This document shows positions 2,252-20,858 of a DNA stretch of 21,458 nucleotides, in pieces (within the stretch, counting starts at the first letter, position 1; the number at the start of each line of letters is the position of its first letter). Below the pieces are notes generated by a model. The model saw only the letters and a program-made list of their open reading frames with translations, was not told where the DNA came from and did not search any database. The position numbers were made by a program, and so were the translations under genes. The stretch spans positions 1 through 21,458 of the forward strand of contig JAGHCW010000118.1 in the NCBI GenBank assembly GCA_021160245.1, in the 5' to 3' direction. This DNA is from a bacterium (lineage in GTDB: Bacteria > B130-G9).

Positions 2252-2287
2252 ATGCACCTTTTTCAAGCGGCCAGGATGGACCTGTGA
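2252..2287 (+). other. Possible 11-codon leader ORF
   Basis: ATG at 2252 follows AGAGG (2241-2245) and encodes MHLFQAARMDL. Its TGA (2285-2287) overlaps the GTG start of the helicase (2284-2286) as GTGA, the arrangement typical of translational coupling. It may set helicase translation, be the tail of a lost upstream gene, or be chance. Confidence 0.2.
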
Positions 2288-5200
2288 TAAAAGAGACTGT
2301 TCCGCACGAAGGACAAATCCTCAAAGGCCCGCTTTTTGACGAACCCATGCGAGTTGAGACGGTATGTGAAGCTGGTGGCGGCACCTGGATCCTCGGGCTC
2401 GTGGGCGTTCATTCCGAACGCTTCCGAAAGGTCACATTAAGGCACGAAGACCTCGGGACTCTCGCAATAGCAAGCCCCATTAGCACTTACGAAGGAGATG
2501 GACGCCTTTTTCGGCTCGGACTTCAGGCGTATTCTTTGGGCATCGCGTACGAATTCGATCCCTACTTTGGCCTCTCGCTCTCGAGCGTCGATCCTCTACC
2601 CCATCAACTCGAAGCGGTCTATGAGTACCTCCTGAAACTGGCGCGAGTTCGTTTCCTGCTTGCGGATGACGCAGACGCGGGAAAGACAATCATGGCGGGA
2701 CTCTTGCTTCGGGAGCTTCAGCTTCGGGGATTGGCGGAGAGGATTCTGGTTGTTTGCCCCGCAAACCTGGCGTTTCAATGGCAGCGCGAGCTCAACGAGA
2801 AATTCACGGAAAAGTTCGAGATACTAAGGGGCAGCAATATCCGCGATCAATTTGGTATGAATCAATGGTTGGAGAAAAAGAAGATCATCACATCTTTGGA
2901 TCTGGCAAAGAGAGATGACATCCTTCCGGGGCTCGGGCAAGTTCAGTGGGACCTCGTTATCGTGGACGAGGCACACCGCATGTCCTGGACGCCGCCCTCG
3001 AAAAAGACGGCACGATATGCCCTCGGCGAGCTTCTAAGGGACACCTCAGACCATATCCTACTCCTCACTGCTACCCCTCACAAAGGGGACCCACGAATTT
3101 CAGCTTGTTCCTTCAGCTTCTTGACGAAGACACTTATGCGGATGTGCGGTCGATTCGCGAGGCCATGGAGCGTCGAAGAGCTCCATTCTATCTTCGCCGA
3201 ACGAAGGAGGCGATGGTCTATTTCCCTGAGAGGCAGCCGGATGGCTCATGGGCAGCAGCGAAGATCTTCAAGAAGCGCATTCCTCATACCGTGGACTTCA
3301 AAATCGACGGTCCGGAGTTCGAACTCTACAGAGAGGTTACTCGGTTCGTTAAGATGCAGTGCGCAAAAGCAGCGGCACGGGGTGACGACCCTCGTGCAAG
3401 AGCCGTGGGCTTCTTGATGTCCCTTTACCAGCGCCGGTTGGCATCGAGTATCTACTCGTTGCGCCGCAGTCTGGAGCGGCGAGCACAGAGGCTGGAAAAC
3501 GCTCTTAGTCGAGCCGAGGAGCTGGTGCAACTGGCCCCACCTGTTCTGCCCTCTCCTGAAGAGCTCGAGGAGATGGAGGAGGGGGAGCGCGAGAAGCTTG
3601 AAGAGATGCTCGAAGCCATAACCTTGGCTGGCAACGCCGAACAAGTGAGAGAGGAGATTGAGGAGCTTGAGCAGCTAGCGATTCAAGCACTCGCGGTCCA
3701 GCAATCCGGTGCAGAGGCCAAGCTATCGCGACTCAGGCACGTGCTGCACAAGGAGGGCTTCTTCGACAGCCCGGCGAAGCGTCTCCTGATATTCACAGAG
3801 TTCAGGGACACGCTCAGCTACCTTCTGGAGAACTTGAAGGCTTGGGGCTTCAAGGTTGGATGTATTCATGGAGGGATGAAGCCTGGATTGCGCGACAAAG
3901 AGGGAACGCGTCTCTATGCCGAGCAGGAGTTCAGGGAAGGCAGAATCCAAATACTTGTAGCCACAGAGGCTGCTGGGGAAGGCATAAATCTCCAAATGTG
4001 CAATATCCTCTTCAACTACGACATCCCTTGGAATCCCAATCGACTCGAACAGCGCATGGGACGTATCCACAGATACGGCCAAAAGCGTGACTGCCTTATT
4101 TTCAACTTCGTAAGTACAAACACGATAGAGGGCAGAGTGCTTCAGCGCCTTCTGGAGAAACTACAGCGAATCCGTGACGCTCTGGATAACGATGCGGTCT
4201 TCAATGTCGTTGGTGAACTACTGCCCGCCGCCCAGATCGAGCGAATACTTCGCGACTACTATGCCGGGAAACTGGGAGATGCTGACCTGGAAGAGCGATT
4301 GCTGGCGAATGTTGATGAGGGTCGATTCAGGTCTATATGCCAGAACGCACTTGAGGGCTTGGCGACCAAGCAGCTCAACCTGGAAATGCTGGTTGAGCGT
4401 CGAGCAAGGGCTCAAGAGCGACGAGTCGTCCCCGAGGCCATCTCGCGGTTCATTCGCAAAGCTGCGGATTACGTTCCAATTGCAATAAAGGTGATCGCGA
4501 ATCTCCCGCACACCTTCGAGCCGGGGCGAACGCCTATATCTCTTCGCTTATATGAGCGGGCACCGGACTGGAAGTTGCCAGTTTTGCTCAACAGATATCC
4601 CCGCTGCACAACGGATCGGGAGACAGCCGAGAAGCTCAACCTCGAATGGGTGACCCCAGGGCACCCTCTCTTTGAATCAATGCGCAGACGTATCGTTGAG
4701 CAGTCGGCAGAGGCCTTAGGGAAAGGAGCTTGCTTCTATTCTCTGCAGCACGAGAATCCTTCTCGCGTCGATTTCTATAGGGCTCGCGTCGTGGATGGCC
4801 TGGGGCAAGTCGTTCACGAACGCCTTTTTACTACAGAGATCGGGCAGAATAACGAGCGTCATCTGCGCGAACCGGGGATGCTCGGAGACTTCGTCCCATG
4901 CGAGACACCAGGAGAACTGCCACAAGTCGCGTCGGCATCCGAGCCATCAGAGTGGCTCAATGCCCATGCATTTCAGCCCTTTCTGGATGAAGTCCGAAAG
5001 GAGAGGACGACCGAAGTGCAACGGATCGCGGAGCACGTAGAGATATCCCTTACGGAGCTGCTTCAGAAGGTAGATCAGGAGATCGGGAGGGCCAGTGAGG
5101 AGGTCGCGAAAAACGTGCCAGGTGCGAAGGGACGCATGGCGCAGGCAGAGAACCGTCATGCCGAGCTCATGGCACGCCGGGAGCGTCGTCGAATGGAGCT

Positions 5201-5699
5201 TCAGCACCAGAGAGCCCTGTCTCTTCAGGCAGTTGAGCGGATTGCGAGTGCTCTAATCCTACCTCACCCGGACCGAGAAGAACCTAATATCCGCGGCATG
5301 AGACCTAACCCCGAGACCGAGGCTATCGCAATGCGTGTCTCGACGGAGCACGAGAGGGCCTTAGGCAGACAGGTTTATGATGTTCACGAGAAGAATCTCG
5401 GCTATGACCTAACCAGCCTCGACCTGAATTCGGGCGAGCTTCGCCTCATCGAGGTCAAGGGACTGACTGGGGCCACTGGCACCATCGTGCTGACCCCAAA
5501 TGAGCGACGCGTCGCCGAGGACCGCCCCGACTGTTACTGGCTCTATATCGTGACGAACTGCGGGACAGAACCAGTTCTTCAAGAGCCGATGATAAACCCA
5601 GCTCGACTTCCGTGGCATGAAGTTACTAAGATCGAGCACTATCTGCTGAGCTCGAGCAAGATCACCAAAGCAAGCGGCAAAACGACAAAAGGCGGGTAA
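2284..5699 (+). CDS. SNF2-family helicase with C-terminal DUF3883 (DrmD-like), frameshifted
   Basis: The SF2/SNF2 ATPase motor probably translocates on DNA for the defence system. Start is GTG at 2284 with AGGA at 2273-2276. Restored, the protein is about 1138 residues, normal for this family. Visible motifs: motif I LLADDADAGKT (Lys134), DEAH at 228-231, LLLTATPHKGDP near 258-269, a long acidic coiled coil, helicase C domain with FTEFRDT near 504 and MGRIHRYGQ near 594, and DUF3883 near 1040-1130 (GYDLTSLDLN, IEVKG), a restriction-nuclease-like fold. The frame breaks after Asp269: re-reading C3090 or adding one base to the CCC at 3090-3092 restores GDPTNFSLFLQLLDED. As written, translation from 2284 stops at 3417 and the remainder is open from 2946. 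Motif I has Asp131 where relatives have Gly. First gene of the operon; DrmD is the closest named relative I know. Confidence 0.9.
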
Positions 5700-5756
5700 C
5701 TTGAGCAGCAAGAGCTGTGAAGGCTCTGAGTGACCGCCTTGGGACACGAGGATCAG

Positions 5757-7073
5757 ATGACTAAGAAGCCGACTAGGCAAGGGGAAGATTTGGAAGCCCA
5801 TTACGGGTCGGCCCTTGGCGACATATCAACCGTAATTGATGCCGCCAGGCGGTCGGCGGCCCGTTCGGTCAACTGCATCATGACAGCTGCCTATTGGCTT
5901 ATTGGCCGACGCATCGTGGAGTTTGAGCAAGGGGGTGAGGCGCGAGCTGGATATGGAGAGATGCTGCTTGAGCGCCTGGCGGAGGATTTGACCGTGAGGT
6001 TTGGGCGCGGCTTCTCCTATCCGAATCTGAATAAGTTTCGCCAGTTCTACCTGGCCTATCCTTGGGAGGACATTCTTTCGACAGTGTCGAGAGAATTAAG
6101 CAGCCAGATTCTCTCGACGGTGTCGATAGAATCAAATCAGCAGAATCGCCTGACATCGTCTGGCAAATCACACCTGGCGCCCGAAGCTCAAGAACCGGTG
6201 CAGATTCCTCAGAGGGTGTCCGAAGAATCGCAATTATCTACCGCCGAGGTTGTCCTGCACCATGCGGCGGCGTGCTTCCCGCTTCCGTGGTCTGCTTACG
6301 TTCGGCTGCTCTCGGTCAAGAATGAGAATGCGCGACGCTTTTATGAGATCGAGGCCTTGCGTGGTGGCTGGTCGGTGCGACAACTCAATCGACAGATCAA
6401 CTCCCAGTTCTACGAGCGCACGGCGCTATCACGAAACAAGGCCGCCATGCTGAGCCAAGGGCAAGAGACCCTAGCAGAAGATGTGGTTCGGCCTGAGGAA
6501 GAGATCAAAGACCCTTATGTGCTTGCGTTTCTTGAGCTCAAAGATGAATACTCCGAGAGCGATCTGGAAGAGGCCCTCATTCGGCATTTGGAGGCTTTTC
6601 TTCTGGAACTCGGCGAGGGCTTCTGCTTTGTCGCCAGGCAGAAGCGCTTACGAATCGGCGACGAGTGGTATCGCGTCGATCTTGTCTTCTTCCATCGTCG
6701 GTTGCGATGTCTGGTCATCGTCGATCTCAAGATCGGCAAGTTCACGCACGCCGACGCCGGCCAGATGCACCTTTATCTCAATTATGCCCGTGAACAATGG
6801 GTGTGCGAGGGTGAGAATCCCCCTGTAGGCCTTATCCTCTGCGCACAAAAAGATGAAGCGGTCGCCCGATACGCGCTGGAGGGACTCCCCAACAAGGTGA
6901 TGGCATCGGAGTACAGGATGGTCTTGCCGGACGAGAAACAACTGGCCGCCGAAATCGAGCACACGCAGGCCATCCTGCAGGCGCGAAACAAAGCGGCACA
7001 TCCTTCTATGGGAGAGGGTGGATCGAAGAAGGACGCGGAGAATGTCACCACGCCCACGCAAGAGGGCGAATAG
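5757..7073 (+). CDS. DUF1016 (YhcG-type) PDDEXK nuclease
   Basis: A 438-residue protein of the DUF1016 family, which pairs an N-terminal DNA-binding region with a C-terminal PDDEXK nuclease and is common in restriction and defence loci. The N-terminal part has YWLIGRRIVEFEQGG and the family's GYPNLNKF-like GFSYPNLNKF. The middle carries ARRFYEIEALRGGWSVRQLN, typical of the family. The nuclease core has EYSESDLEEAL, then Asp308 (YRVDLVFFHRR) and Asp323-Leu-Lys325 (VDLKIG), so the catalytic residues look intact. I chose ATG 5757 because GAGG (5748-5751) lies five bases before it; GTG 5730 would add nine residues but has no good ribosome site. It starts 57 bp after the helicase. Residues about 106-126 are encoded by a palindromic repeat (see 6072-6133). 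Confidence 0.9.
   Translation: MTKKPTRQGEDLEAHYGSALGDISTVIDAARRSAARSVNCIMTAAYWLIGRRIVEFEQGGEARAGYGEMLLERLAEDLTVRFGRGFSYPNLNKFRQFYLAYPWEDILSTVSRELSSQILSTVSIESNQQNRLTSSGKSHLAPEAQEPVQIPQRVSEESQLSTAEVVLHHAAACFPLPWSAYVRLLSVKNENARRFYEIEALRGGWSVRQLNRQINSQFYERTALSRNKAAMLSQGQETLAEDVVRPEEEIKDPYVLAFLELKDEYSESDLEEALIRHLEAFLLELGEGFCFVARQKRLRIGDEWYRVDLVFFHRRLRCLVIVDLKIGKFTHADAGQMHLYLNYAREQWVCEGENPPVGLILCAQKDEAVARYALEGLPNKVMASEYRMVLPDEKQLAAEIEHTQAILQARNKAAHPSMGEGGSKKDAENVTTPTQEGE
6072..6133. repeat. Tandem pair of palindromes inside the DUF1016 gene
   Basis: Two 25-27 bp imperfect palindromes lie in the coding frame: 6072-6096 (ATTCTTTCGACA / TGTCGAGAGAAT, 11 of 12 paired) and 6107-6133 (GATTCTCTCGAC / GTCGATAGAATC, 11 of 12). 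They encode the repeated peptide ILSTVS. Similar repeated peptides at this place occur in other DUF1016 proteins as I recall them, so this may be a family trait. Confidence 0.6.
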
Positions 7074-7148: not shown

Positions 7149-8852
7149 ATGAAGCTGATTACAAAGGTCGTAGTCGATCATTTTCGCTCCATCCGCCATC
7201 AGGAGATAGGTGATTTCAGCAATTTCACATCTCTGGCTGGGCTAAACAATTCTGGGAAGTCGAACCTCCTGAGAGCAGTTAATGCATTCTTCAGCGGTCA
7301 TACAGATATCTGCGATCCGCTAGATTTTCAGCGCGATTACTTCTGTCACGATGCAAGGTCGAAAAAAGCCAAGCGCATATCGATAACAATCAAATTTGAT
7401 CTGCCAGATAACTTCAAATTCCCCAAACGTGTGAAGGACGCTGAAGACCTCCTGAGCCGTTCTTTCGCTATACGTAAAGTCTGGGACCGCGACAGCCGAG
7501 TGCCCCAATACTATTTGAACGACTCGGAAGACGAGCTCGACCAAACACGGCGCAGTGGCGTTGACAAGTTCCTTTCATTGATCGCCTTCCGATACATCCC
7601 GAATAGGGTAATACCTGTCGACGTCATTCGCAACGAACGCAAAGCCCTGAGAGACGTTCTGATAAGGCGTATGGGCCCCAAAGCGAGAGAGCAACATGGA
7701 GCATTTGAGACCATAAGAGCGACATCGGTTAACCTAATAACGGACCTTCAGGACTTAGTGCAAGGGGCTTGCCCGGATGTTGGCTCGATACGTCTGGCGA
7801 CACCTGCATCATGGCAAGATCTTGTTTTCGCTTTCGGCTACAAATTTATGGTAAGGGAGTCTGAGATAGACGACGTTGCGCAGGGCTCTGGCATACAAAG
7901 CCTACTTATGTTCGAGACCCTGTCTTTGATTGACCGTGATTTTCGTCAGAGGTTTGGCTGGCGCCAAGCATCCATCTGGGCAATCGAAGAGCCCGAATCC
8001 TCCCTTCACTCCTCGCTAGAGGCTAGCATATCTGAGTACCTTCGCAATCTCTCCACCAAGGAGAGCAACAGACTCCAGATTCTCTGCACCACCCACTCCG
8101 ACTTGATTCTCCAGTATTCTGACAGAGTTGTCTTCGCGGAGATGGAAGATGGACGAACTCTCTTCCGGAGCATGGGAGACAAAGCATCCATACTTCAGGA
8201 AGCCGCTAAGCTCGGAATCTCCAGATGGGCCCACCCAATACTCCGCGACCCTCTTAATCCAGTAATTTTGGTTGAAGGGAAATATGATTGCGCTTTCCTA
8301 GAGCAGGCCCTTCGCCTACTGGCTCCTCAGCGGACCATTAACGTCTCGTATGTCGGGCGGCTACAGGGCGGGGACGCAACGGGCGGCGACAAACATCTAC
8401 AGAGCTATGTAAAGAACAACGCCAGTGCGATAAAATCCAGACCCCATTCCGCACCGGTAATCGCATTGTTGGATTGGGATGCCGCAAGACGCGTGAATGA
8501 ATTCAAGAAAGGATTCGAGTCCTCCGATCCCTATCAAGTCAAAGCCTGGCCAGAAAATGCGTGTAATCCCGAGCTGGACAGGTCATTTCACGGCATCGAG
8601 CGACACATGCCGGACCGTATCATTGACCTTGCAGACCAAACGGCCAACATCATATTTAAACGAGGCAGGGCCAAAGCGATTCCGAAAGATGCGGATTATG
8701 GGAAGTTCAAGGAAGCAGTCTTTGGAATCGTGCAGAGGGGGATAAAAGCAGAAGATCTGGTTCATGTTGAGCCCTTTCTCAGGAGATTGCTCGACTCTCT
8801 TGACCTTCGTGGGGGGACAGCATCTTGCCTCCCAGAAGACGACGACAGATGA
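7149..8852 (+). CDS. OLD-like ATP-dependent nuclease (AAA ATPase plus TOPRIM)
   Basis: This 567-residue protein joins an SMC/ABC-type ATPase to a C-terminal TOPRIM domain, the layout of OLD-family and Gabija GajA-type nucleases. Walker A is GLNNSGKS (31-38); a signature-like GSGIQSLL follows near residue 250; Walker B is WAIEEPES with Glu280-Glu281; ILCTTHSD gives the H-loop. TOPRIM residues are Glu376 in VILVEGKYD and Asp442/Asp444 in LLDWDAA. All key residues appear present. GAGAGGAG (7131-7138) precedes the ATG. There is a 75-bp gap after the DUF1016 gene, the largest in the left half of the run, so a separate promoter is possible. The stop overlaps the next start (ATGA, 8849-8852), tying it to the PRTase partner. 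Confidence 0.9.
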   Translation: MKLITKVVVDHFRSIRHQEIGDFSNFTSLAGLNNSGKSNLLRAVNAFFSGHTDICDPLDFQRDYFCHDARSKKAKRISITIKFDLPDNFKFPKRVKDAEDLLSRSFAIRKVWDRDSRVPQYYLNDSEDELDQTRRSGVDKFLSLIAFRYIPNRVIPVDVIRNERKALRDVLIRRMGPKAREQHGAFETIRATSVNLITDLQDLVQGACPDVGSIRLATPASWQDLVFAFGYKFMVRESEIDDVAQGSGIQSLLMFETLSLIDRDFRQRFGWRQASIWAIEEPESSLHSSLEASISEYLRNLSTKESNRLQILCTTHSDLILQYSDRVVFAEMEDGRTLFRSMGDKASILQEAAKLGISRWAHPILRDPLNPVILVEGKYDCAFLEQALRLLAPQRTINVSYVGRLQGGDATGGDKHLQSYVKNNASAIKSRPHSAPVIALLDWDAARRVNEFKKGFESSDPYQVKAWPENACNPELDRSFHGIERHMPDRIIDLADQTANIIFKRGRAKAIPKDADYGKFKEAVFGIVQRGIKAEDLVHVEPFLRRLLDSLDLRGGTASCLPEDDDR

Positions 8853-9934
8853 GTAATCGCAAAGAGCTTCTGGGCACCATCGCCAAGATCATCTCTGACT
8901 ATCGGGAAGGAGATATTCCCCCAAGAGCGCCCGAACTCATCGAGCACTGGCTTCAGCAGTTCCCAGCATCGATCCAAGACGATCTTCTCGAGGCATGCGT
9001 TCATGTCTTCAAGAAAACCTATATTTCACTCACTTCTTTCAGGAGCTTTCTCACAGGTCTTGCTGTCTCAGATAAGCTGTATCCGGGCTGCGAGCCTTCC
9101 GATTATTGGCTGGAAGCGAATCTCCTTGACATTCAACAAGGGGGTAACAGCCAGAAAGAGATCCTTGAGATATTTGATGAGATCCTCCAAGATGAACACG
9201 GCTTTGGACTGGCGGATACAGGCAGCGGCGACGGGGATTTCGTATATATTGACGACTGCATGGGAACAGGAAATAGGGTCAAGCATGACATCTGCAGTTG
9301 GCTTGACCAGGACACTCCCAGACAGATAACCTTGAAAGTAGTAACACCGATTCTATATGCCGGTTCATGGTGGATTGACGAGTGGATCAAACAGAAGGCC
9401 ACTGAAAACGGGAAAACGATAACGATAGAGAAGTATTATCTGGATGATTCATATTTGGAGAATAGAAAGGGCTACAGGAACAACTCAGATGTGCTATGGC
9501 CCACAGAGATTCCCGACGATGGATGTGTTCGGGCCTACTGTGACCTGCTGAGTGAGAGAGGTTACCCGCATGAAGTGCGAGCCCGTGGTAATCCTGGAGC
9601 CGCTGAAATCTTTCGAGATGATTCCCAGAAGATCCTGCTGGAGCAGGCCTTTCTCGTTAGAGGCTGCCAGATTCGTCGCGAGAATCCCAATCTTCCGGAG
9701 GTCGCTCGTCCGCTTGGATACAACAAGCTCCATTCCCTTGGCTTTGGCTCGATGTTCGTCATGTATCGAAACTGCCCAAATAACTGCCCGCTTGTGTTTT
9801 GGGTGGAGCAGGATGAGTATCCGGCTCTGTTTCCGCGAAAGACCAATACCCAGACGAGGGAGGGGGCCCTGTTTTCGCCGAAGACGCCTGCTCGGCCAAC
9901 GGAGGAATCCATCCCAGAGGACTTTCCTTTCTAA
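8849..9934 (+). CDS. Phosphoribosyltransferase-like protein (PRTase-CE type)
   Basis: A 361-residue protein with a clear type I PRTase PRPP-binding motif, FVYIDDCMGTGNRV (Asp135-Asp136, then GTG), preceded by a helical N-terminal region. Type I PRTases use PRPP to make N-glycosidic bonds with bases; conflict-system versions (PRTase-CE, also effectors of some retrons) have no settled substrate. I take ATG 8849 as start, because it overlaps the OLD stop as ATGA; TTG 8825 would add eight basic residues inside the OLD gene. Its own TAA shares a base with the next ATG (TAATG). The overlaps suggest it acts with the OLD nuclease, the NADAR-methylase, or both. The C-terminal 200 residues show no second domain I recognise. 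Confidence 0.8.
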   Translation: MSNRKELLGTIAKIISDYREGDIPPRAPELIEHWLQQFPASIQDDLLEACVHVFKKTYISLTSFRSFLTGLAVSDKLYPGCEPSDYWLEANLLDIQQGGNSQKEILEIFDEILQDEHGFGLADTGSGDGDFVYIDDCMGTGNRVKHDICSWLDQDTPRQITLKVVTPILYAGSWWIDEWIKQKATENGKTITIEKYYLDDSYLENRKGYRNNSDVLWPTEIPDDGCVRAYCDLLSERGYPHEVRARGNPGAAEIFRDDSQKILLEQAFLVRGCQIRRENPNLPEVARPLGYNKLHSLGFGSMFVMYRNCPNNCPLVFWVEQDEYPALFPRKTNTQTREGALFSPKTPARPTEESIPEDFPF

Positions 9935-12900
9935 TGCAGAACCAAAGCCAAATCCGAACCTATGTGATGGCAGAATGCGCAGTTTTCAGGAAGACCAAAG
10001 AGCGCTTCGGTGGCCTTTCCAACATGGCGCCTGGTTTTCCGCTCCATGTCAATGGCGCCCATATTCTGACTTCTGAGGCTCTCTATCAAGCCTGCCGGTT
10101 TCCAGACCGGCCGGACCTTCAGGAGCTGATCATAAGGCAGCGAAGCCCGATGACTGCAAAGATGAAGAGCAAGCCTCATCGAAAGGAGCATACAAGGCGA
10201 GATTGGGACCGGGTTCGAGTCAAAATTATGCGATGGTGCCTCCGCGTCAAGCTCGCGCAGAACTGGAACAGTTTTGGCGCCCTACTGCAGACCACTGGTG
10301 ATCGCCCGATCGTGGAAAACTCACACAAAGACAGGTTCTGGGGCGCGGTTCCCGTCGACGAGACGACTCTTGAGGGCCGGAATACGCTTGGGAGGCTGCT
10401 GATGGAGCTCCGCGAAGAGCTTCGAGCTGATGCAGAGCATTTGAGGAATGTCGAGCCGCCACCCATACCGAGATTCCATCTTCTAAGAGAGCCAATACAA
10501 ACCATAAGAGCCCATACAGACGTGAGGGGTATTGGGAGAGAACAGCCTACACGGCAGACCGAGCTGCCTGAAAAGCCAATGCCCAAGGCGCAACCGCCTG
10601 AGAGGACACATAGTGAGGGAGTGATGCAGACTATAGCGAAGCCGGAGTGCCATCAAGCAGATGCAGAAAAGACGACAATCCCCAAAGGATGCAAGCGGCT
10701 GGCGGAGGTGGATTTCCCGATTGCGGAGGTGTCGAGGCATTCGGTGCGAGAGAAGTCCATCAGACATGGACATCCAAGCACGCTGCACCTGTGGTGGGCG
10801 AGGCGCCCTCTGGCTGCGTGTCGGGCTGTGCTTCTCGAGTTGTTGCTGCCCGATCCGTGCGACCCAGACTGCCCGGATCCCTTCAAGGGCAGAGCGAGGG
10901 AGCTTCTTCCTGCCGTTCAGGGCAGGCCAGGGCCATCCGACCTTGATCTACGCAGGGCGCTCTTGAAGTTCGTCGCCGACTTCGCCAACTGGGACAATTC
11001 GAGTCATCCTAAGTATCTGAAAGTCGGTCGGGGACTTGTGAAGGCCGCGCACCCTGAGGAAACTCCCCTCGTCGTTGATCCCTTTGCGGGAGGCGGTTCG
11101 ATTCCGCTTGAGGCGTTGCGCCTCGGCTGTGATGCTTTCGCTAGCGACCTCAACCCCGTCGCCTGTCTCATCCTGAAGGTGATGCTGGAGGATATCCCTC
11201 GTCATGGGCCAGAACTAGCCGATGAGCTCCGTCGCGTTGGGAAGGAGATCAAGGAGAAGGCGGAGCAAGAGCTGGCCGAATTCTACCCGAAAGATCCAGA
11301 CGGTTCGACTCCCATCGCTTATCTTTGGGCACGGACGGTACGGTGTGAGTCTCCCGACTGCGGAGCGGAGATACCTCTGATGCGTTCCTTCTGGCTCTGC
11401 AAAAAGGCCAAGCGAATGCGAGCTCTAAGACCAATTATTCACCACAGAGACACGGAGAACGCCGAGAAGAGAAATGAGTCTATGTGTCCCCGTGGTGACT
11501 TCCCTCATATCCACTTCGAGATCTTTGAGCCCAAGAGCGAGAGCGAGGTCCACGCGGGCACCGTATCTCGTGCAAAGGCGACCTGCCTGTGCTGTGGGAT
11601 GGTCCTGCCCCCTAAAAGGGTGCGGGCGCAGCTCTCTAAACAGCGAGGGGGAGCAGATGTTGTCTTTCATAAAAGAGACATAAAGACGGAGGAAAGGAAG
11701 GCAGACCTTATCTCTCCGTGGTGCAGGATTGGCGGTGCGCGGATGCTGGCCGTCGTAACGCTCAAGCCCGTAGAGAAGGGCCGGCATTACCGTCAGCCCA
11801 CAGACCGCGATTATGAGGCGGTCTGGAAGGCCCAGCAACAACTTGAATCTATCCTCGACGAGTGGGAACGAGGCGACAAGAAAGGCCTATGCCCACTGCC
11901 CGATGAGCCACTTCCGCCTATAGGGACCCTGGGATTTCGTGTTCAAAGATATGGCATGATAACATGGGGGGATCTTTTTGCGGCAAGACAGAAAGTGAGA
12001 CTGCTACAACTGCAACGGCAAATCCTGAAAGAGAATGGCCACGCTCTTCTGTTATTCCTCGCTCTTCTGTTTGGGAAAGTTGCGGATGGGAATAACTCCC
12101 TGTCACGCTGGATGGCCGGCTATGAGCATCCGGTCGGCCTGTTCAGTCGGCAGGCAATACCGATTGTGTGGGACTTCTGCGAGCAGGCTATTGGATGTCA
12201 TACCGGAGCCGCATTGGTTTCAGCAACGAATAGTATCGCAAGGGTGATTGAGTTCAATGCCATTCCCTCTCCAGGGCAGTGTCAGCAGGAGGACGCACGC
12301 TGCTCGTCTATACCACAAGGATCATGCCGTGTATGGTTCACGGATCCGCCTTACTATGACGCTATTCCCTATGCGGACTTATCGGACTTTTTCTTCGTCT
12401 GGCTCAAGCGCTTGATCTCCTATAACGCATTAATGCAGAGCTCACACGAATCAGACCCCAAACTCACACCCAAAGATCGCGAGATCGTGCAGGATGAAAC
12501 TAAGACCTTTGATGGAGCTCCAAAGGATAGGAGTTTTTTTGAAAACAGCATGAAAGTCGTCTTCTCAACCGGCCGGCGAGTCCTCTGCGACGATGGAATT
12601 GGCTCCATCGTATTTGCCCACAAGACAACCAGCGGATGGGAGGCCCTTCTATCAGGTCTCAGCAAAGGCGGATGGACGATTACTGCGTCTTGGCCGATCT
12701 CCACCGAAATGACATCTCGACTAAGGGCCCGCGATTCCGCAGCACTTGCCACCAGCGTTCACCTCATCTGCCGCCCGCGTCCTGCGGATGCCCCAGTGGG
12801 CGATTGGGCGGATGTGCTGCGTGAACTGCCGAGTCGGGTTCGTGATTGGATTGAGCGTCTTCAGTCGGAAGGTATCCGAGGCGCGGACCTCGTCTTTGCT

Positions 12901-13752
12901 TGCATTGGCCCTGCGCTTGAGATATTCAGCCGCTACTGCCGCGTCGAGACCGCCGAGGGCCAGGAGGTGAAGCTGGCCGAATACCTGGAGAAGGTCTGGG
13001 AAGTTGTGGGGCGCATGGCGCTTGAGCAGATTCTTGGCACGGAAGAGTCGCGAGTGAGCAATGGGGCGGGAAGTGTCCTAGAGGAGGACGCCCGTCTGAC
13101 AGCACTATTCCTATGGACGCTCCAGTCCACGGGTAAGGAAGTTACGGAGACACAAGAGAGCACAGAGAGGGAAGGTGGGGCTACAGAAGAGGGTGAGGAG
13201 GATGCTGACGATGCGTCTGGCCGTCGAGGCAAGGCAAAGGGTTATTCGCTCGTTTTCGACCTGGTGCGCCGCTTTGCTCAGCCGTTGGGAATAGGCCTCC
13301 CGAAATGGGAGGACCGCATCATCAAGACTGAGAAGGGCGTCGTTCGCCTTCTGCCTGTCTCAGAGCGTGCGAGGCAGCTATTCGGCAAGGATGGGGTCGG
13401 CCAGGCGGCAGACTGGATCGAGGCTCAACCCGACAAAGCTGCCCAATTGGCCCTCTTCCCCGAGTTAGAGGATCAGGCCCCCAAGATTCGTGGTCGGCGT
13501 AAGAGGGCTATCGTCGATCCGAAGGGGCTTGAAGGTGACGCGATGCGCGAGGCCACGACGCTCGATCGTGTGCACGCAGCGATGTTGCTCCAGGCGAGTG
13601 GTCAGGCGAATGCGCTTCGGGCGCTGATCAAGGCCGAGCAAGGAAGGGGCCCGAATTTCATGCGCCTTGCGAACGCGCTCTCTGCGCTCTATCCTCGCGG
13701 CAGCGAGGAGAAGCGTTTGCTGGATGCAATGCTTCTCGCTGTGCCGAGGTAG
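9934..13752 (+). CDS. NADAR domain fused to DUF1156 adenine-type DNA methyltransferase
   Basis: A single 1272-residue frame joins two proteins that are usually separate. Residues about 10-170 are a NADAR (YbiA-like) domain: GGLSNMAPGFPL, SEALYQACRF, SPMTAKM, ENSHKDRFWGA and LGRLLMELREEL. NADAR enzymes cleave N-glycosidic bonds, and some remove ADP-ribose from guanine in DNA. After a proline-rich linker, residues about 250-310 are DUF1156 (HLWWARRPLAACRA), followed by a gamma-class methyltransferase: motif I DPFAGGGS at 382, catalytic DPPYYDAIPY at 804, and Cys471/476 with Cys551/554 as a probable zinc ribbon. The protein should methylate adenine in DNA to mark self. Start ATG 9934 overlaps the PRTase stop. 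A palindromic repeat is inserted in frame at residues 502-522, and 1070-1095 is an acidic low-complexity linker. Confidence 0.92.
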   Translation: MQNQSQIRTYVMAECAVFRKTKERFGGLSNMAPGFPLHVNGAHILTSEALYQACRFPDRPDLQELIIRQRSPMTAKMKSKPHRKEHTRRDWDRVRVKIMRWCLRVKLAQNWNSFGALLQTTGDRPIVENSHKDRFWGAVPVDETTLEGRNTLGRLLMELREELRADAEHLRNVEPPPIPRFHLLREPIQTIRAHTDVRGIGREQPTRQTELPEKPMPKAQPPERTHSEGVMQTIAKPECHQADAEKTTIPKGCKRLAEVDFPIAEVSRHSVREKSIRHGHPSTLHLWWARRPLAACRAVLLELLLPDPCDPDCPDPFKGRARELLPAVQGRPGPSDLDLRRALLKFVADFANWDNSSHPKYLKVGRGLVKAAHPEETPLVVDPFAGGGSIPLEALRLGCDAFASDLNPVACLILKVMLEDIPRHGPELADELRRVGKEIKEKAEQELAEFYPKDPDGSTPIAYLWARTVRCESPDCGAEIPLMRSFWLCKKAKRMRALRPIIHHRDTENAEKRNESMCPRGDFPHIHFEIFEPKSESEVHAGTVSRAKATCLCCGMVLPPKRVRAQLSKQRGGADVVFHKRDIKTEERKADLISPWCRIGGARMLAVVTLKPVEKGRHYRQPTDRDYEAVWKAQQQLESILDEWERGDKKGLCPLPDEPLPPIGTLGFRVQRYGMITWGDLFAARQKVRLLQLQRQILKENGHALLLFLALLFGKVADGNNSLSRWMAGYEHPVGLFSRQAIPIVWDFCEQAIGCHTGAALVSATNSIARVIEFNAIPSPGQCQQEDARCSSIPQGSCRVWFTDPPYYDAIPYADLSDFFFVWLKRLISYNALMQSSHESDPKLTPKDREIVQDETKTFDGAPKDRSFFENSMKVVFSTGRRVLCDDGIGSIVFAHKTTSGWEALLSGLSKGGWTITASWPISTEMTSRLRARDSAALATSVHLICRPRPADAPVGDWADVLRELPSRVRDWIERLQSEGIRGADLVFACIGPALEIFSRYCRVETAEGQEVKLAEYLEKVWEVVGRMALEQILGTEESRVSNGAGSVLEEDARLTALFLWTLQSTGKEVTETQESTEREGGATEEGEEDADDASGRRGKAKGYSLVFDLVRRFAQPLGIGLPKWEDRIIKTEKGVVRLLPVSERARQLFGKDGVGQAADWIEAQPDKAAQLALFPELEDQAPKIRGRRKRAIVDPKGLEGDAMREATTLDRVHAAMLLQASGQANALRALIKAEQGRGPNFMRLANALSALYPRGSEEKRLLDAMLLAVPR
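11439..11498. mobile_element. Palindromic intergenic-type repeat inserted in frame in the methylase
   Basis: TCACCACAGAGACAC (11439-11453) pairs with GTGTCCCCGTGGTGA (11484-11498) at 13 of 15 positions. The ends and the inner AGACACGGAGAA resemble a widespread bacterial non-coding repeat beginning CACCACAGAGACAC. It encodes IHHRDTENAEKRNESM, foreign to the flanking DUF1156 sequence, which resumes as FPHIHFEIFEP. It keeps the frame open. Confidence 0.65.
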
Positions 13753-13762
13753 GGAGGGATTC

Positions 13763-14728
13763 ATGAAGACATACGGCAATGCGCGACCAATGTTGATCAT
13801 CAGAGCCAAAGGGCCAGCCACGAAGCACGGAAGTATCCCCCTCAAAGATCTACTGCTGCTGGGAAAGGGAATACAGACGGCCATTCAGCGCGTGGCTCGA
13901 GTCCTGGTTGGCCAGGGAGATAGTGGAAGACCGGGAAAGCCTCCAAAAGATGTTGCCTCAAGTTGCCTGTTGGAGGTAATAGCTCTGAATCGGGGCAGCT
14001 TCGAGCTGGCACTCGACCTTCCCCGGGACCAATTGCCAATTGCCCATCTGGGCATGGAGGCGATAAACAAGCTCCTTGACGGCCTGGAGGCGATCCAAGA
14101 GGGCAATGGCCCCATGCCGGCGGGCTTCGACAAGGGTGTTCTGCATAGCCTCAAGGATATTGGGGCAGACATCGGGAAGGGAATAGACGCCGTTGAGATT
14201 GAGTCCAGGCTGCAATCCGTAGCTAGAAGGTTTGCTCTGAACAAAGAGGTGAAGAGTCTGATCGCTAAGCGCATCCAAGGCCCAGTTGCGGCGTTGAGGT
14301 CCATCGAAGGGCGGCTGTTGATGGCCGATTTCGGCCATGCAAAGGAGAAATGTCGCATTCATCCACCTGCGGGACAACCCATCGTATGCAGCTTTGACGA
14401 ATCGCTTGAGGATACTGTCTATGAACATCTGAGGCAGTACGTTCGAATCACGGGTGAGACTCAGGAGGACGCTACTACAGGGAGAATCTCGAGCATTAAC
14501 ATCACGGACATTGAACCTGTCATCATAGAAAACCAGGAGGTTGGAACTTTCTCAGCGGAGGAATTCTGGGAGCGTAAATCCCTTGAGCAGTTGGCGAAAG
14601 AGCAGGAGATATCCCCAATCGCCGATCTGGATGATATCTGGGGCAAAGGTGCTGACCTTTGGGAAGACAACGATGATTTCGATGCTTTCATTGCTGGGAC
14701 CAAAGGAATTCCTGACGGGCTAGCTTGA
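13763..14728 (+). CDS. Antitoxin-like partner of the PIN nuclease (no assigned family)
   Basis: A 321-residue protein I cannot place in a named family. It has a long helical N-terminal region, a middle segment ending in GRLLMADFGHAKEKCRIHPP, a beta-rich stretch (GRISSINITDIEPVII), and an acidic tail FWERKSLEQLAKEQEISPI then WEDNDDFDAFIAG. Acidic tails of this kind in VapB- and AbrB-type antitoxins bind the PIN toxin. Proteins with this tail, encoded just before PIN genes, are known to me. The ATG at 13763 has GGAGGG just upstream; the frame is open back to 13667 but that overlaps the methylase. Its TGA shares a base with the PIN start (TGATG). I infer an antitoxin or PIN-regulator role. Confidence 0.7.
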   Translation: MKTYGNARPMLIIRAKGPATKHGSIPLKDLLLLGKGIQTAIQRVARVLVGQGDSGRPGKPPKDVASSCLLEVIALNRGSFELALDLPRDQLPIAHLGMEAINKLLDGLEAIQEGNGPMPAGFDKGVLHSLKDIGADIGKGIDAVEIESRLQSVARRFALNKEVKSLIAKRIQGPVAALRSIEGRLLMADFGHAKEKCRIHPPAGQPIVCSFDESLEDTVYEHLRQYVRITGETQEDATTGRISSINITDIEPVIIENQEVGTFSAEEFWERKSLEQLAKEQEISPIADLDDIWGKGADLWEDNDDFDAFIAGTKGIPDGLA

Positions 14729-15075
14729 TGATGGATACACTGCTGCTCGACACCAACATTGTCTCCTACGTTATGAAGGGCGACACTCGAGCAGAGAAAT
14801 ATCGTCCGTATTTCGCTGGAAGGACGTTGGCGATATCCTTCATGACCGTGGGCGAGCTGTATGAGGGCGCGTATCGGGCAGGCTGGTCCGAGCCTAGATT
14901 GAGGAGGTTGAGGGAAGAAATAAGACGATACTTGGTAATCCCTTTCTCATTCGCGGTTTGTGTGACCTGGGGACAACTTCGCGCTGAGCGCCGCAAGCAA
15001 CCTATTTCCGTTGCGGACGGATGGATTGCTGCAACGGCTCTCGCGCACGCGTGCCCGCTCCTACTCATAATCTAA
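14728..15075 (+). CDS. VapC-like PIN-domain nuclease, C-terminus frameshifted
   Basis: PIN ribonucleases of VapC type cut tRNA or rRNA and act as toxins. As read the protein has 115 residues. Acidic metal-binding residues are present at Asp8 (LLLDTN), Glu43 (TVGELYEG) and Asp97 (SVADGWIAATAL). The expected end, THNLNDFTGISELEILTEY, with the fourth acidic position, is found in the -1 frame from 15063; adding one base near 15061-15063 would give about 143 residues ending at 15158 and overlapping the DUF499 start. As written the last strand is replaced by LII. Start ATG 14728 overlaps the antitoxin stop; ATG 14731 is equally possible. It is either a broken toxin or a one-base sequence error. Confidence 0.8.
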   Translation: MMDTLLLDTNIVSYVMKGDTRAEKYRPYFAGRTLAISFMTVGELYEGAYRAGWSEPRLRRLREEIRRYLVIPFSFAVCVTWGQLRAERRKQPISVADGWIAATALAHACPLLLII

Positions 15076-15138: not shown

Positions 15139-17928
15139 ATGATGCAACCTTGGTATAAAATCGCACTACCACGGAAAGAGGTCCGCGAGGGTCGTTCGTT
15201 CAACCCGGACGAGTTCGCAATCCACTTGGAGCAAGTCGCAGCGGGAACCGCCCCTGAGGACTATCGGGACCCTAGACAATTCTTCTCTAGGAACTGGTTC
15301 ACTCAAGCGCTGACAGAGCACGTGGGCATGGTAATGAGAAGGCTCGACGGCCAGACGGTGAACACCGCCCCCGTCATTACGCTCGTCACCCAATTTGGCG
15401 GTGGGAAGACACATACTCTAGCGGCTCTTTACCATCTGTCAAAGAACGGTGCGGAGGCTATGGGCTTTGATGGCGTGCCTGATGTTGTCAAAAATTCAGG
15501 TGTCAAATCGCCCCCCAAGGCGAGAGTGGCAGCCTTCGTTGGCAATGCCTGGGACCCACGAGAGGGATCCGAGACCCCATGGATCGACGTTGCACGGCAG
15601 TTGGCAGGGGACAAGGGAGTTGCGGAGCTCGGCCCCGCAGCTAAGACTACTCCTCCTGGAACAGAGTCGCTGAGCCGCGTCTTCAAGGCGGCAAACGCGC
15701 CGGTCCTTCTCCTCTTCGATGAAGTTCTCAACTTCATGGGACGACATAGGGGAATGGCGGAGCAATTCTACGCATTCATTCAGAATCTAACGGTGGCAGC
15801 AACTGGCACGGCGCATGCCGCTGCTGTCATCAGCCTTCCGCGAAGTCAAGTTGAGATGACCGATTGGGATATGCAGTGGCAGGACAGGATCACGAAGGTC
15901 GTTCGTCGCGTTGCGAAAGACCTTATCGCTAACGACGAGACTGAGATCAGCGAGGTTGTGCGGAGACGGCTCTTTGATGAGATCGGAGGCGACCGGACCC
16001 GCAGAAATGTCTCAAAAGCCTATGCGGATTGGTGTTTTGAGCGCCGAGCACAGCTGCCATCCGAATGGACAGCTGTCAACAGCGCCTCAACCGAGAAGAA
16101 AGCGAAAGACTACCTTCGCAGCCGATTCGAGCTGTGCTATCCCTTCCATCCAGCCACGCTCTCCGTTTTTCAACGTAAGTGGCAGGCCTTGCCTCACTAC
16201 CAGCAGACTCGTGGTACGCTCGCGATGCTGGCCCAGTGGATTGCATGGGCCTTTCGGACCGGCTTTGCTGAGGCTCGCACCGAGCCGCTTATTACGCTTG
16301 GCTCTGCCCCGCTCCACGTGCGGGAGTTCCAGAGCGTGGTGCTCGGGCAGCTCGGCGAATCTCGTCTCTCTTCCGCGGTGGAAGCCGACGTATGCGGGGC
16401 CCAGTCCCATGCGAAGGCGCTGGATGCTGACACCAAAGGACCTCTTAGAGATATCCATCGCAGAGTCGGAACTGCGATCTTCTTCGAATCATCGGGCGGT
16501 CAAGTTGAGAAGGTTGCACATCTTCCAGAGCTTCGATTCGCTATCGGGGAGCCAGAAGTTGACACTACCTCCGTGGACAGTGCGGCCCTCGAGCTTGAGC
16601 ACAAGTCATACTTCATCCGAAGAGTAGGTTCCGACGGACTCAAGATCGGCTACAAACCGACTGTGAAGAAAGTCGTCAATGACAGGCGTGCGTCATTGGA
16701 TGAGGAAACCGAGATAAGACCGGCGATGCGTACACTAGTTGAGCGAGAGTTCCGGAGAGGCGCGGGCATACCCATCGTGCCCTTCCCGGCCGATGGCGCT
16801 TCGGTGCAGGATACGGCGAAGTTGATGCTAATAATTGGGGATCCCGAGCTAGAATGGAACGGAAGTGAATCGCTCTTTGCACAGTTAGCAGAGTGGACGA
16901 GGCTTCGTGACAAATCGCCGCGTCTTTATCCGGGTTCTCTTGTTTGGTGCCTCAAGAAGCAGGGCCGAGAGCTGCGCGACAAGGTGGAGCTCTGGCTGGC
17001 CTGGAAGCGAGTCGCCAGGGAGATTACGGAAGGCTACTTGGGGAGCGACTTCGAGCATCGGGAACGGGCAGAGATCTCGGCGAGGGAGAGAGAGGCTGCC
17101 GATGTCGCGAGAGATGAGGTCTGGGGCGACTATCGATTCGCTCTCATCTTCGACAGCAAAGAGCCTACTGGATTGCAGGTCATTGACCTGGGGGCAGGCC
17201 ATTCGAGTGCGGCAGAGACGCTCTGCAGTCGCGTGGTCGCTGCTCTGAAGTCCCAGGCATTGTTGAATGAGACTGTTGGCGCTGGCTACGTTGAGCGCCA
17301 TTGGCCGCCTGCATTCAAAGAATCGGGAGCGTGGCCGCTCGCAAGCCTTCGCCAGAGCTTCCTCAATGGATCCTTGACAAGATTGATCGACCCCGACGCC
17401 GTCCTGCGTTCAAAGGTGGTTGAGTGGATCGCGAAGGGCGAATTCGGGCTGGCCTCTGGCCAGAAGCCCGACGGCTCTTACAAGAGAGTTTGGTTCAACG
17501 AAGGCCTTTCGCCTGATGAGGTGACTTTCGAATCGGGCGTCTTTCTCCTGCTGAAAGCGCGAGCAGAGTCATTGAAGGAACCTGAGCCCTCCCCGCGAGG
17601 GTCAATCTTGGAACCGGAGCCCCCAATAGAACGAGGAGCATCGCGACAAGAGCGGAAGGACCAAGGGCCCGCGCCTCAGCTTGCTGTCGAGAAGAACGCC
17701 GAAGCAGCCAAGGCACCCAGAACATTCCGAATCTTAGGTGACATCCCTCCCGAGCTCTGGAACAGACTGGGCACAAAGCTGATACCGAAATTGCGAAACG
17801 GGACAAACCTCAGCATCGGCGTGGAGTTCGCTGTGACTGTCGATGGGCGCTTTGCCAGGAGCTTCGAGACTGATGTGAGGCAGATACTAGAGGATCTCGG
17901 GCTCTCGGAGATGGTGAGGATCGGATGA
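15139..17928 (+). CDS. DUF499 AAA-type ATPase
   Basis: A 929-residue protein of the DUF499 family, large P-loop ATPases found beside DUF1156 methylases and SNF2 helicases in predicted defence modules. Walker A is QFGGGKTHT (Lys90, Thr91) and Walker B is VLLLFDEVLNF (Asp194, Glu195). The N-terminus, with PRKEVREGRSFNPDEFA, is typical. A charged, proline-rich linker around 815-850 leads to a compact C-terminal domain (RILGDIPPELWNRLGTKLIP) that also occurs in relatives. Full length, with no break seen. GAGGG (15131-15135) precedes ATG 15139. Function is inferred: an energy-driven partner or DNA-loading factor for the methylase and helicase. It is the last large gene of the operon. Confidence 0.9.
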   Translation: MMQPWYKIALPRKEVREGRSFNPDEFAIHLEQVAAGTAPEDYRDPRQFFSRNWFTQALTEHVGMVMRRLDGQTVNTAPVITLVTQFGGGKTHTLAALYHLSKNGAEAMGFDGVPDVVKNSGVKSPPKARVAAFVGNAWDPREGSETPWIDVARQLAGDKGVAELGPAAKTTPPGTESLSRVFKAANAPVLLLFDEVLNFMGRHRGMAEQFYAFIQNLTVAATGTAHAAAVISLPRSQVEMTDWDMQWQDRITKVVRRVAKDLIANDETEISEVVRRRLFDEIGGDRTRRNVSKAYADWCFERRAQLPSEWTAVNSASTEKKAKDYLRSRFELCYPFHPATLSVFQRKWQALPHYQQTRGTLAMLAQWIAWAFRTGFAEARTEPLITLGSAPLHVREFQSVVLGQLGESRLSSAVEADVCGAQSHAKALDADTKGPLRDIHRRVGTAIFFESSGGQVEKVAHLPELRFAIGEPEVDTTSVDSAALELEHKSYFIRRVGSDGLKIGYKPTVKKVVNDRRASLDEETEIRPAMRTLVEREFRRGAGIPIVPFPADGASVQDTAKLMLIIGDPELEWNGSESLFAQLAEWTRLRDKSPRLYPGSLVWCLKKQGRELRDKVELWLAWKRVAREITEGYLGSDFEHRERAEISAREREAADVARDEVWGDYRFALIFDSKEPTGLQVIDLGAGHSSAAETLCSRVVAALKSQALLNETVGAGYVERHWPPAFKESGAWPLASLRQSFLNGSLTRLIDPDAVLRSKVVEWIAKGEFGLASGQKPDGSYKRVWFNEGLSPDEVTFESGVFLLLKARAESLKEPEPSPRGSILEPEPPIERGASRQERKDQGPAPQLAVEKNAEAAKAPRTFRILGDIPPELWNRLGTKLIPKLRNGTNLSIGVEFAVTVDGRFARSFETDVRQILEDLGLSEMVRIG

Positions 17929-19040: not shown

Positions 19041-20729
19041 TCAGTTCCGATCATTGGCCAGGGCAATGCGGATCCACTCTTCGGGAGTGTAACCACCAAC
19101 GTAGAAAGGAGCCTGCCAAATGTCCCGAGAATCGAAATCTGCCCGCAGTCCGAGGCCATCCACGAATTCACCGAATCCAGACATTGAGCGGAACTCGAAT
19201 GCGCTCAGTTTGGGTGAGGAGAAGAAGCAGTTGGGGTATTCCCGCCTCTGGGCCTCCCAGCGGTTGATGATGAGGACATATACCTCGCGGTCAGTGTTGT
19301 CCGTGGGTCTTTTGTAATGGTCTTTGCAGAAGTGATAATATGTGTAAAAGGGGCAGTTTTCATCCTCCTGCCCGGTCTCCTTACGATAGACGAATACGCG
19401 GCCATCAAAAACCCGCTCATCGTCCCCGAAGCGTTCAAGTAACGCCCTGACCAAGGTCTTTGCGCCTCCAAATGTGAAGATATACGGATTGCCAACCAGG
19501 ATTACGTGGTTGTAGATATGGCCGAAACCAAGAAGGACAATCGCGCCGACGATGATCGCTCGGTTTAGGCCGGCGATTCTGACGCTAGCCAACTGGATCG
19601 ATCCTTCACGCAGGACTTGGAAGAGGCGAAGACCAATATACAATGCGGCGATTGGGAGCGCATATATGGAATAGTGTGGCCGAAGCTCTGCCCCGAGCTG
19701 GAGATTCGCAGCCAGCATCGGAATGAAGGGCAAGGTGGAGACGATGAGAACAGGCAGTTCGATGCAACGAGCTAGGTCACACGAGGTTTTGTCCGTTTGA
19801 CCCCTTCTGAAGAGGTTCCAAAGTGCGAAGAAGGCAATAAGCCACAGTGTCGGTCGGAGGGGATTCGGATAGAACTTGGCGATGGAATAGAGTGATGACC
19901 CGAGAACGAGTCCCCACATTGGAATGGCAAGCCTATCGTGTAATGCGAATACGGCATGATGGAATCTTCTCACAAGAAAATGACCGAGCGCAATCATCGG
20001 TCCAACCCCGACATATATGACCAGACAAAGCACCGTCAGTGATGTATATTTCTCTGTCAGGATGCCGATAGAAAGAGGAATGGCGAGCGCGACGCCGAGG
20101 GCAGAGCCCGTTATCTTATGCTTGGCTGCGACTTTCTGGAGTGAGACCACGGGCAAGAATGCCAGCGGGGCAAGAAAAGCCATTGGATGCATGTGCGTGC
20201 ATAAAACGCCGGTCAGAATGAATGCGTACCACAAGCGAACACTGCCCGAATTGGCGAATAGGAGCGAGAACGAGAACGTCAGCAGCGATAGCGCTACCAG
20301 CAGATGGGGACTCCAGATCGTGTCCGTCAGATGTAGAAGCTCCGGGCAGACAAGAAGGAAGATAACGGTGAAAAGTGCAGCTTGCCCCCCAAAGAGCCGA
20401 CGCAGCGCGATCCCTGTAACGGCGAGAGTCACCAACCACAAAATATTCATCTCAATCACTGCGGCAAGCGGCGTGCCTCCAATGAAGCAGCCCAAAGCCA
20501 CAAGATAGTAGTAGACGGGCGACCCCCTAGTATTAAAGTCTATCGACATCCAGGGGCCAAAAAGAGGAAACTCCAGCCCCTGTGCGATGCGCATTGCATA
20601 ATACGAGTCCCTCGCCTGATCTTGCATCATCGGTGCGCGGTCCAGATACGCAATACGATACGCAAAGACTGCTGACAACAAAGCGGCGACCACAATCCAT
20701 GACTTAATGCTGATCGGTCGGCTCAACAT
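19041..20729 (-). CDS. GT-C (ArnT/PMT-like) membrane glycosyltransferase
   Basis: A polytopic membrane protein of about 562 residues. Around ten or more hydrophobic segments alternate with short loops, starting with WIVVAALLSAVFAYRIAYL. The first outer loop holds an acidic motif, MMQDQARDSYYAMRIAQG, at the place where GT-C enzymes (GT39 and GT83 kin) carry catalytic Asp/Glu, followed by TRGSPVYYYLVAL. The last 130 residues are soluble. Such enzymes move sugars from polyprenyl-phosphate donors onto lipids or proteins outside the membrane. I chose ATG 20729; TTG 20774 would add 15 residues and has AGGGA upstream, so it remains possible. Family assignment rests on topology and this one motif. 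It is oriented with the tRNA and away from the defence operon, and probably belongs to the host backbone. Confidence 0.7.
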   Translation of the reverse strand: MLSRPISIKSWIVVAALLSAVFAYRIAYLDRAPMMQDQARDSYYAMRIAQGLEFPLFGPWMSIDFNTRGSPVYYYLVALGCFIGGTPLAAVIEMNILWLVTLAVTGIALRRLFGGQAALFTVIFLLVCPELLHLTDTIWSPHLLVALSLLTFSFSLLFANSGSVRLWYAFILTGVLCTHMHPMAFLAPLAFLPVVSLQKVAAKHKITGSALGVALAIPLSIGILTEKYTSLTVLCLVIYVGVGPMIALGHFLVRRFHHAVFALHDRLAIPMWGLVLGSSLYSIAKFYPNPLRPTLWLIAFFALWNLFRRGQTDKTSCDLARCIELPVLIVSTLPFIPMLAANLQLGAELRPHYSIYALPIAALYIGLRLFQVLREGSIQLASVRIAGLNRAIIVGAIVLLGFGHIYNHVILVGNPYIFTFGGAKTLVRALLERFGDDERVFDGRVFVYRKETGQEDENCPFYTYYHFCKDHYKRPTDNTDREVYVLIINRWEAQRREYPNCFFSSPKLSAFEFRSMSGFGEFVDGLGLRADFDSRDIWQAPFYVGGYTPEEWIRIALANDRN

Positions 20730-20858
20730 TACACCGTGCTCACAGTCTTGTAGTCCCACCTCGCAGTCCAACAAATCCCTGCAGACGATATCGTCCTCAT
20801 GAACCTGCTCTTGGGCTTTGTGTGGCTAGATAGCCGATCGCTTATTTTTGATCAAGAG

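Follow-up and report, generated by a model that had tools for sequence, protein, structure and literature searches.

A NADAR domain fused to the HmaB methylase of an Hma operon, beside the phosphoribosyltransferase of the DS-32 pair

The DS-32 pair, Hma and type I restriction are already known, and elements of all three have a bearing on the bacterial DNA described here (GenBank assembly GCA_021160245.1, contig JAGHCW010000118.1, positions 1 to 21,458), a stretch that we refer to as the window. DS-32, a name that we take to come from DefensePredictor, is a pair consisting of a phosphoribosyltransferase (PRTase) of the PRTase-CE type and a NADAR protein. Free DS-32 pairs, encoded by separate genes, occur in E. 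coli; of 5426 complete genomes, 62 gave a match when searched at near identity with one of these pairs. The window contains a helicase-methylase-ATPase (Hma) operon into which a DS-32 pair is built, and the NADAR of that pair is joined to the methylase.

Compared to the free DS-32 pair, the window has the same order, a PRTase-CE gene directly followed by a NADAR of this type, and both components score above their NCBIfam equivalog cut-offs. Here, however, NADAR is the N-terminal domain of a methylase of 1272 aa and the pair lies inside an Hma operon instead of standing alone, so that the locus holds a fused variant of DS-32 rather than two separate adjacent genes. Compared to Hma as defined in PADLOC, HmaA, HmaB and HmaC are present in order in one operon on the + strand (2284-5699, 9934-13752 and 15139-17928), but HmaB carries NADAR, the PRTase and passenger genes are inserted, and HmaA is frameshifted; the Planktothrix Hma locus L016 has neither NADAR on its HmaB nor the PRTase insertion. 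Type I restriction operons with PRTase-CE and a NADAR::HsdS fusion (for example L020) contain the same pair in the same order, with NADAR at the N-terminus of a DNA-recognition subunit, but the partner there is HsdS, with HsdM and HsdR, and not a DUF1156 methylase.

More distant likenesses concern the individual components. In DarT1-NADAR (DarTG1; PMC11543638) a NADAR is likewise one gene of a two-gene pair, but the window partner is a PRTase and not an ADP-ribosyltransferase, and the NADAR pocket differs in having a glutamate of the YbiA type (Glu128) and, at the position of the essential lysine, Arg55. PRTases are probable effectors of type III-A retrons and in a DprA-linked pair, where they stand beside a DNA-binding or sensing partner (PMC9122126, PMC12548924); the similarity of the PADLOC PRTase_III-A model to the window PRTase is weak and local (E 9.5e-10, residues 295-344), and no reverse transcriptase or DprA was recognised in the window. 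The closest functional precedent is PrrC, which EcoprrI, a type I restriction enzyme, keeps in a latent state (PMC3874165). By analogy, the window PRTase may work like PrrC, as a host-damaging effector that would lie latent in a DNA-modification operon under restraint by the complex. It is not a PrrC: the PRTase had only PRTase-CE matches in Pfam and no homology to PrrC, which is an anticodon nuclease, and the restraint in the window may come from an enzymatic domain that the complex carries as a fusion. A literature search in which subscription journals were thinly covered found no paper describing NADAR fused to DUF1156 or to HsdS.

The fused reading frame and the PRTase upstream of it

An earlier note, made from the letters of this DNA alone, had described one frame joining a complete NADAR domain to DUF1156 and a DPPY methylase, and family models and motifs agreed with that description throughout. 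The open reading frame (9934-13752, + strand, 1272 aa) is uninterrupted by any internal stop. Pfam placed NADAR (PF08719) at residues 18-164 with 90.6 bits (cut-off 35.1) and DUF1156 (PF06634) at residues 261-309 with 77.2 bits (cut-off 24). The N-terminal part was fitted better by the NCBIfam model NF053876, 'DS32_2_antiphage', which aligned over residues 8-188 with 181 of 181 model positions and scored 273.8 bits against a cut-off of 240; we assign residues 1-188 (9934..10497, + strand) as the NADAR domain and component 2 of DS-32. The C-terminal part, residues 245-1272 (10666..13752, + strand), is an HmaB-type DUF1156 N6-adenine methyltransferase, matched by the PADLOC HmaB model in three stretches (346.1 bits), with the S-adenosylmethionine-binding motif DPFAGGG at residues 382-388 (from 11077) and the catalytic DPPY at residues 804-807 (from 12343).

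In the AlphaFold2 model of the fusion, NADAR (residues 1-195) was predicted with confidence and the methylase, from residue 245 on, with mostly good confidence. The stretch between them (residues 196-244; 10519..10665, + strand) was disordered, with a predicted local distance difference test score (pLDDT) of mostly 33-39. As modelled, the fusion is two domains joined by a flexible tether. Inside the linker there is an ATG at 10624 preceded by GAGGGAG, a purine-rich sequence resembling a ribosome-binding site, and comparable ATGs occur in loci L043 (9416) and L083 (10655). Judging from the sequence, this ATG could serve as a separate start for HmaB, so that a single gene would yield the methylase both with and without NADAR.

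Catalytic residues of the NADAR domain are intact. In an alignment of 54 NADAR sequences E48, E128 and W136 were invariant and D133 nearly so, and R55, also invariant, sits at the position of a lysine in YbiA and of Lys95 in the E. coli C7 NADAR. Together E48, R55, E128, D133 and W136 satisfy the superfamily signature of a catalytic Glu with a further Glu/Asp, a phosphate-binding Lys/Arg and a Trp; the pocket residues on which the earlier note had let its proposal stand or fall are thus present, with an arginine at the essential-lysine position. In the C7 NADAR the K95R substitution retained activity in vitro but gave no rescue from DarT1 (PMC11543638). E128 aligns with the glutamate of the YbiA type that has been described among NADARs (PMC11125620). 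The best match in the PDB was YbiA itself (2b3w, E 6.6e-29), and the NCBIfam model TIGR02464 scored 71.7 bits, just under its cut-off of 73.7. Both active sites of the fusion, that of NADAR and that of the methylase, look competent.

Directly upstream lies the PRTase-CE gene, component 1 of DS-32 (8849..9934, + strand; Pfam PRTase-CE 154.9 bits; NF053875 309.4 bits, cut-off 250). Its start codon shares bases with the stop of the gene before it (ATGA), and its own stop shares bases with the NADAR start (TAATG). The loop that binds phosphoribosyl pyrophosphate (PRPP), YIDDCMGTGN at 9245-9274, is intact, and its residues Y141, D143, D144 and G149 were invariant in the PRTase alignment. The AlphaFold2 model was confident (pLDDT 89.3), and the solved structures that aligned closest to it were PRTases and PRPP synthetases with middling Z scores of 6.9-8.4 (VIA list); Foldseek alone gave no match at E <= 0.001, its top rows being mostly meaningless. 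No ADP-ribosyltransferase of the DarT or YarT type was found among the scanned genes; the partner of this NADAR, encoded by the adjacent gene, is PRTase-CE.

These structural likenesses bear on a possible role in small-molecule signalling, in which the PRTase would make or consume a nucleotide signal from PRPP, NADAR would hydrolyse that signal, and the fusion would merely co-localise the switch with a sensor. The PRTase model is similar to PyrR and UPRT, whose ligands are free nucleobases or nucleotides, and YbiA, the NADAR relative that is the best PDB match and whose family cut-off this NADAR nearly reaches, hydrolyses riboflavin intermediates (as cited in PMC11543638). However, among the selected families looked for, no dedicated receptor or effector gene was seen to accompany the pair across its contexts, and we consider such a switch quite unlikely.

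Partners of NADAR and its linkage to the PRTase in relatives

Relatives of the window locus were collected by a genome scan with the NADAR alignment, from which the best 80 loci of 277 relatives were kept, and from viral contigs; de-duplication left 103 NADAR loci. As the 80 genome loci kept were the ones most similar to the window, the proportions given below do not represent DS-32 NADARs as a whole. In 45 of the 103 loci NADAR was fused to HsdS, which is the specificity subunit of type I restriction enzymes, and HsdM or HsdR was present in the same locus in all 45 cases. Pfam Methylase_S was confirmed in the NADAR::HsdS proteins of L020 and L032, and the gene order of L020 was hsdM, GmrSD, PRTase, NADAR::hsdS, hsdR. 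Many of these operons (L020 7097-8893, and similar alphaproteobacterial loci) have a GmrSD-type protein encoded after hsdM and before the PRTase, and may therefore contain another defence layer.

Fusion to a DUF1156 methylase was found in seven of the 103 loci besides the window. In five of them (L022, L034, L043, L056 and L083) the methylase was 46-66% identical to the HmaB of the window, and in L007 and L051 it was 35% identical. L007, from the viral-contig scan, has helicase, PRTase, NADAR::DUF1156 methylase and DUF499 genes consecutively, and in L035 NADAR and HmaB are adjacent yet separate genes. The contigs with the fusion belong to Acidobacteriota, Planctomycetota, Actinomycetota, Pseudomonadota and Thermodesulfobacteriota, and the catalytic residues are conserved in them. 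An assembly artefact at the NADAR/methylase junction was ruled out by these homologous fusions in unrelated assemblies; the join near 10450-10650 that the earlier note had raised as a possible explanation is unnecessary to account for the frame.

The remaining partners were more varied. NADAR carried a C-terminal helix-hairpin-helix in L061 (Pfam HHH_3) and, by similarity, in L089, L092 and L093; in L058 it was fused to DUF4365 and preceded by two tandem PRTase-CE genes (7864-9980); and in cyanobacteria there were fusions to C-termini with no assigned family. Parsimony on the NADAR tree counted 21 changes of partner, but the tree is poorly resolved and our claim is accordingly limited to several partner classes. 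The approximately unbiased test neither established nor rejected a single origin of the methylase fusions (p 0.34 with all eight DUF1156 fusions included, 0.69 for the six close to HmaB).

The PRTase lies directly upstream of NADAR in 88 of the 94 loci with enough upstream sequence; of the other six, five are contigs of phages and the sixth is a distant gene of the YbiA-like kind. When the search was reversed and started from the PRTase, NADAR was directly downstream in all 28 loci of the viral collection, some with a PRTase just 24-29% identical; this count is biased towards linkage and not fully independent, because loci with a linked NADAR had supplied the query. The PRTase–NADAR pair is the unit. 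Within that bias, the putative toxin was never found without the putative antitoxin, whereas NADAR sometimes occurs alone, and this is the pattern of a toxin–antitoxin pair. The solo NADARs include seven phage records (L010, L017, L112, L114, L116, L117 and L152), several of them jumbo phages and up to 533 kb in size, with a DS32-like NADAR and no match to the DS-32 PRTase. These are candidate counter-defence genes, as expected for phage-borne mimics of an antitoxin, for which AdfB against DarT is a precedent (PMC11481870).

The earlier note had proposed that the methylase-borne NADAR cleans or senses ADP-ribosylated or phage-glycosylated bases, with no part for the PRTase. The fusion and the competent-looking active sites on which that proposal was built have stood, and the tested NADARs do act on guanine-ADP-ribose in DNA and RNA (PMC11543638, PMC11833690). 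The proposal nevertheless overlooks the PRTase-CE gene directly upstream, and it takes in neither the Hma operon nor the parallel fusion to HsdS, which is the commoner one. When the main genes of the window were scanned against family models (Pfam, PADLOC, NCBIfam), no DarT or other ADP-ribosyltransferase was recognised. Given the near-obligate linkage in both directions of search, the natural substrate of this NADAR is more likely the product of that PRTase than a phage modification, and we regard a role independent of the PRTase as very unlikely.

The module as a whole is rare. Among 386 sampled genomes only one besides that of the window had a DS-32 PRTase over the cut-off (L148, where NADAR is fused to an HsdS-like sequence), while some HmaB-like match was present in 79.

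A proposed toxin–antitoxin module built into a DNA-marking complex

The asymmetry of the linkage, the precedents set by PRTases that are probable effectors and by NADARs that act as antitoxins (PMC11543638, PMC11125620), and the repeated fusion to DNA-recognition partners together suggest that the pair is a toxin–antitoxin module built into a DNA-marking complex. The PRTase would be a PRPP-dependent toxin, and NADAR its antitoxin, anchored as a guard on the subunit that marks DNA; we give this reading an even chance. The PRTase would transfer a phosphoribosyl group from PRPP to an essential target, either a nucleic-acid base or a nucleotide, and this product would be toxic. NADAR would cleave the resulting N-glycosidic bond, hold the PRTase, or both. 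As NADAR is tethered to the subunit that recognises or methylates DNA (HmaB here, HsdS in type I operons), the defence complex would carry its own antitoxin. A phage that inhibits, titrates or destroys the complex would leave the PRTase unrestrained, and the infected cell would stop growing. The sequences show the fusion itself, the linkage of PRTase and NADAR in both directions, intact catalytic motifs in both proteins and the recurrent joining to DNA-recognition partners; we infer the toxicity of the PRTase, its phosphoribosyl product, the reversal by NADAR and the release by phage.

The same DNA-recognition partners could also be explained by targeting. The PRTase would then mark phage and host DNA broadly, and the methylase or specificity subunit would steer NADAR to unmark self sites, so that the fusion would work by bringing an eraser to DNA and not by guarding the integrity of the complex. 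HsdS, the DUF1156 methylase and the helix-hairpin-helix proteins are all DNA-recognition modules, and NADARs are able to strip ADP-ribose from guanine in DNA (PMC11543638), both of which fit such a scheme. However, if the mark were removed at methylation sites alone, most of the host genome would keep it, and in ~35 loci solo NADARs with no DNA-binding partner accompany the same type of PRTase. We think a site-directed eraser unlikely.

Several observations weigh against the toxin–antitoxin guard that we favour. The free DS-32 pair is itself named an anti-phage system in NCBIfam, which means that the methylase is not required for defence. Another two-gene DefensePredictor system, DS-5, did not behave like a toxin–antitoxin pair on gene deletion (PMC13092281), so that two genes do not by themselves imply one. 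The distances of PRTase and NADAR were only moderately correlated (r 0.45), where a tighter correlation might have been expected had the antitoxin been tuned to a single toxin. The window PRTase was 60% identical to that of L056 and 43-45% identical to those of L043 and L083, the closest Hma relatives of the window. Finally, the frameshift in HmaA, as read from the sequence, may have left this copy of the operon inactive.

The mirror-tree signal for a special co-evolution of PRTase and NADAR was weak. Across 40 type I operons, NADAR distances tracked those of HsdM (r 0.84) and HsdR (r 0.83), whereas the PRTase diverged about twice as fast and tracked HsdM and HsdR less (r 0.40 and 0.39). In the Hma loci, HmaA and HmaC of L043 and L083 shared 71-75% identity with their counterparts in the window, compared to 43% (HmaA) and 34% (HmaC) for L056. 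Because the PRTase is nearest to that of L056 although HmaA and HmaC are nearest to those of L043 and L083, it seems, on sequence identities, that the PRTase has been swapped while the Hma scaffold around it stayed. One reading of such an exchange is effector diversification under phage pressure.

If the guard reading is true, a further layer would have been added to common defence systems (type I restriction and Hma), DS-32, for which the literature search found no reported mechanism, would gain a testable one, and phage-borne NADARs of this type would be predicted to be counter-defence proteins. The HsdS and HmaB fusions also indicate where NADAR acts in the cell. A wider generalisation would be that a suicide module has been taken up several times by restriction and related DNA-marking systems, in which module PRPP-dependent phosphoribosylation of an essential nucleic acid is reversed by a NADAR fused to the specificity subunit or methylase, and that a phage disarming the system triggers death; we put this forward tentatively, as possible but doubtful.

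The surrounding Hma operon

The first gene of the operon encodes an HmaA-like SNF2 helicase with a NOV_C C-terminus (2284..5699, + strand; Pfam SNF2-rel_dom, Helicase_C and NOV_C; PADLOC HmaA). It is read as two open reading frames, 2284-3417 and 2946-5699, which scored 207.8 and 340.8 bits at HmaA model positions 61-274 and 276-1131 and together cover most of the model. A single-base frameshift splits the gene near 3090, beside a short run of C (3060-3110), and the intact HmaA frame is not present here; a sequencing error and a mutation are indistinguishable, and we therefore do not claim a functional Hma system for this copy. The frameshift might suggest that the NADAR fusion is a passive passenger, a functionless read-through in a decaying island. 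The same fusion has, however, been kept across five phyla with its catalytic residues conserved, which largely refutes this as a general account, and we regard it as highly improbable.

Between HmaA and the PRTase lie a DUF1016/YhcG PD-(D/E)XK nuclease (5730..7073, + strand; Pfam YhcG_C 196 bits, DUF1016_N 140 bits; PADLOC PDC-S02 463 bits), a passenger gene that is missing from the other Hma fusion loci, and an AAA_15/OLD-like ATPase (7149..8852, + strand; Pfam AAA_15 77 bits, AAA_21 57 bits; PADLOC AriA/Old weak). Downstream of HmaB, a protein whose start we take at the ATG at 13763 (13763..14728, + strand) had no Pfam, PADLOC or NCBIfam match; an unmatched protein of 321 aa occupies the same place in L083. 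It is followed by a VapC-like PIN-domain protein (14725..15075, + strand; Pfam PIN 56 bits) and by HmaC, a DUF499 AAA+ ATPase (15139..17928, + strand; PADLOC HmaC 297.4 bits; Pfam DUF499 47 bits). Outside the island, 19041-20774 on the - strand encodes an apparently hydrophobic protein of 577 aa with no Pfam match. The genome of the window contains a second DUF1156/HmaB-like methylase gene, on contig C39 (2785-4830, - strand), in an open frame of 1009 aa.

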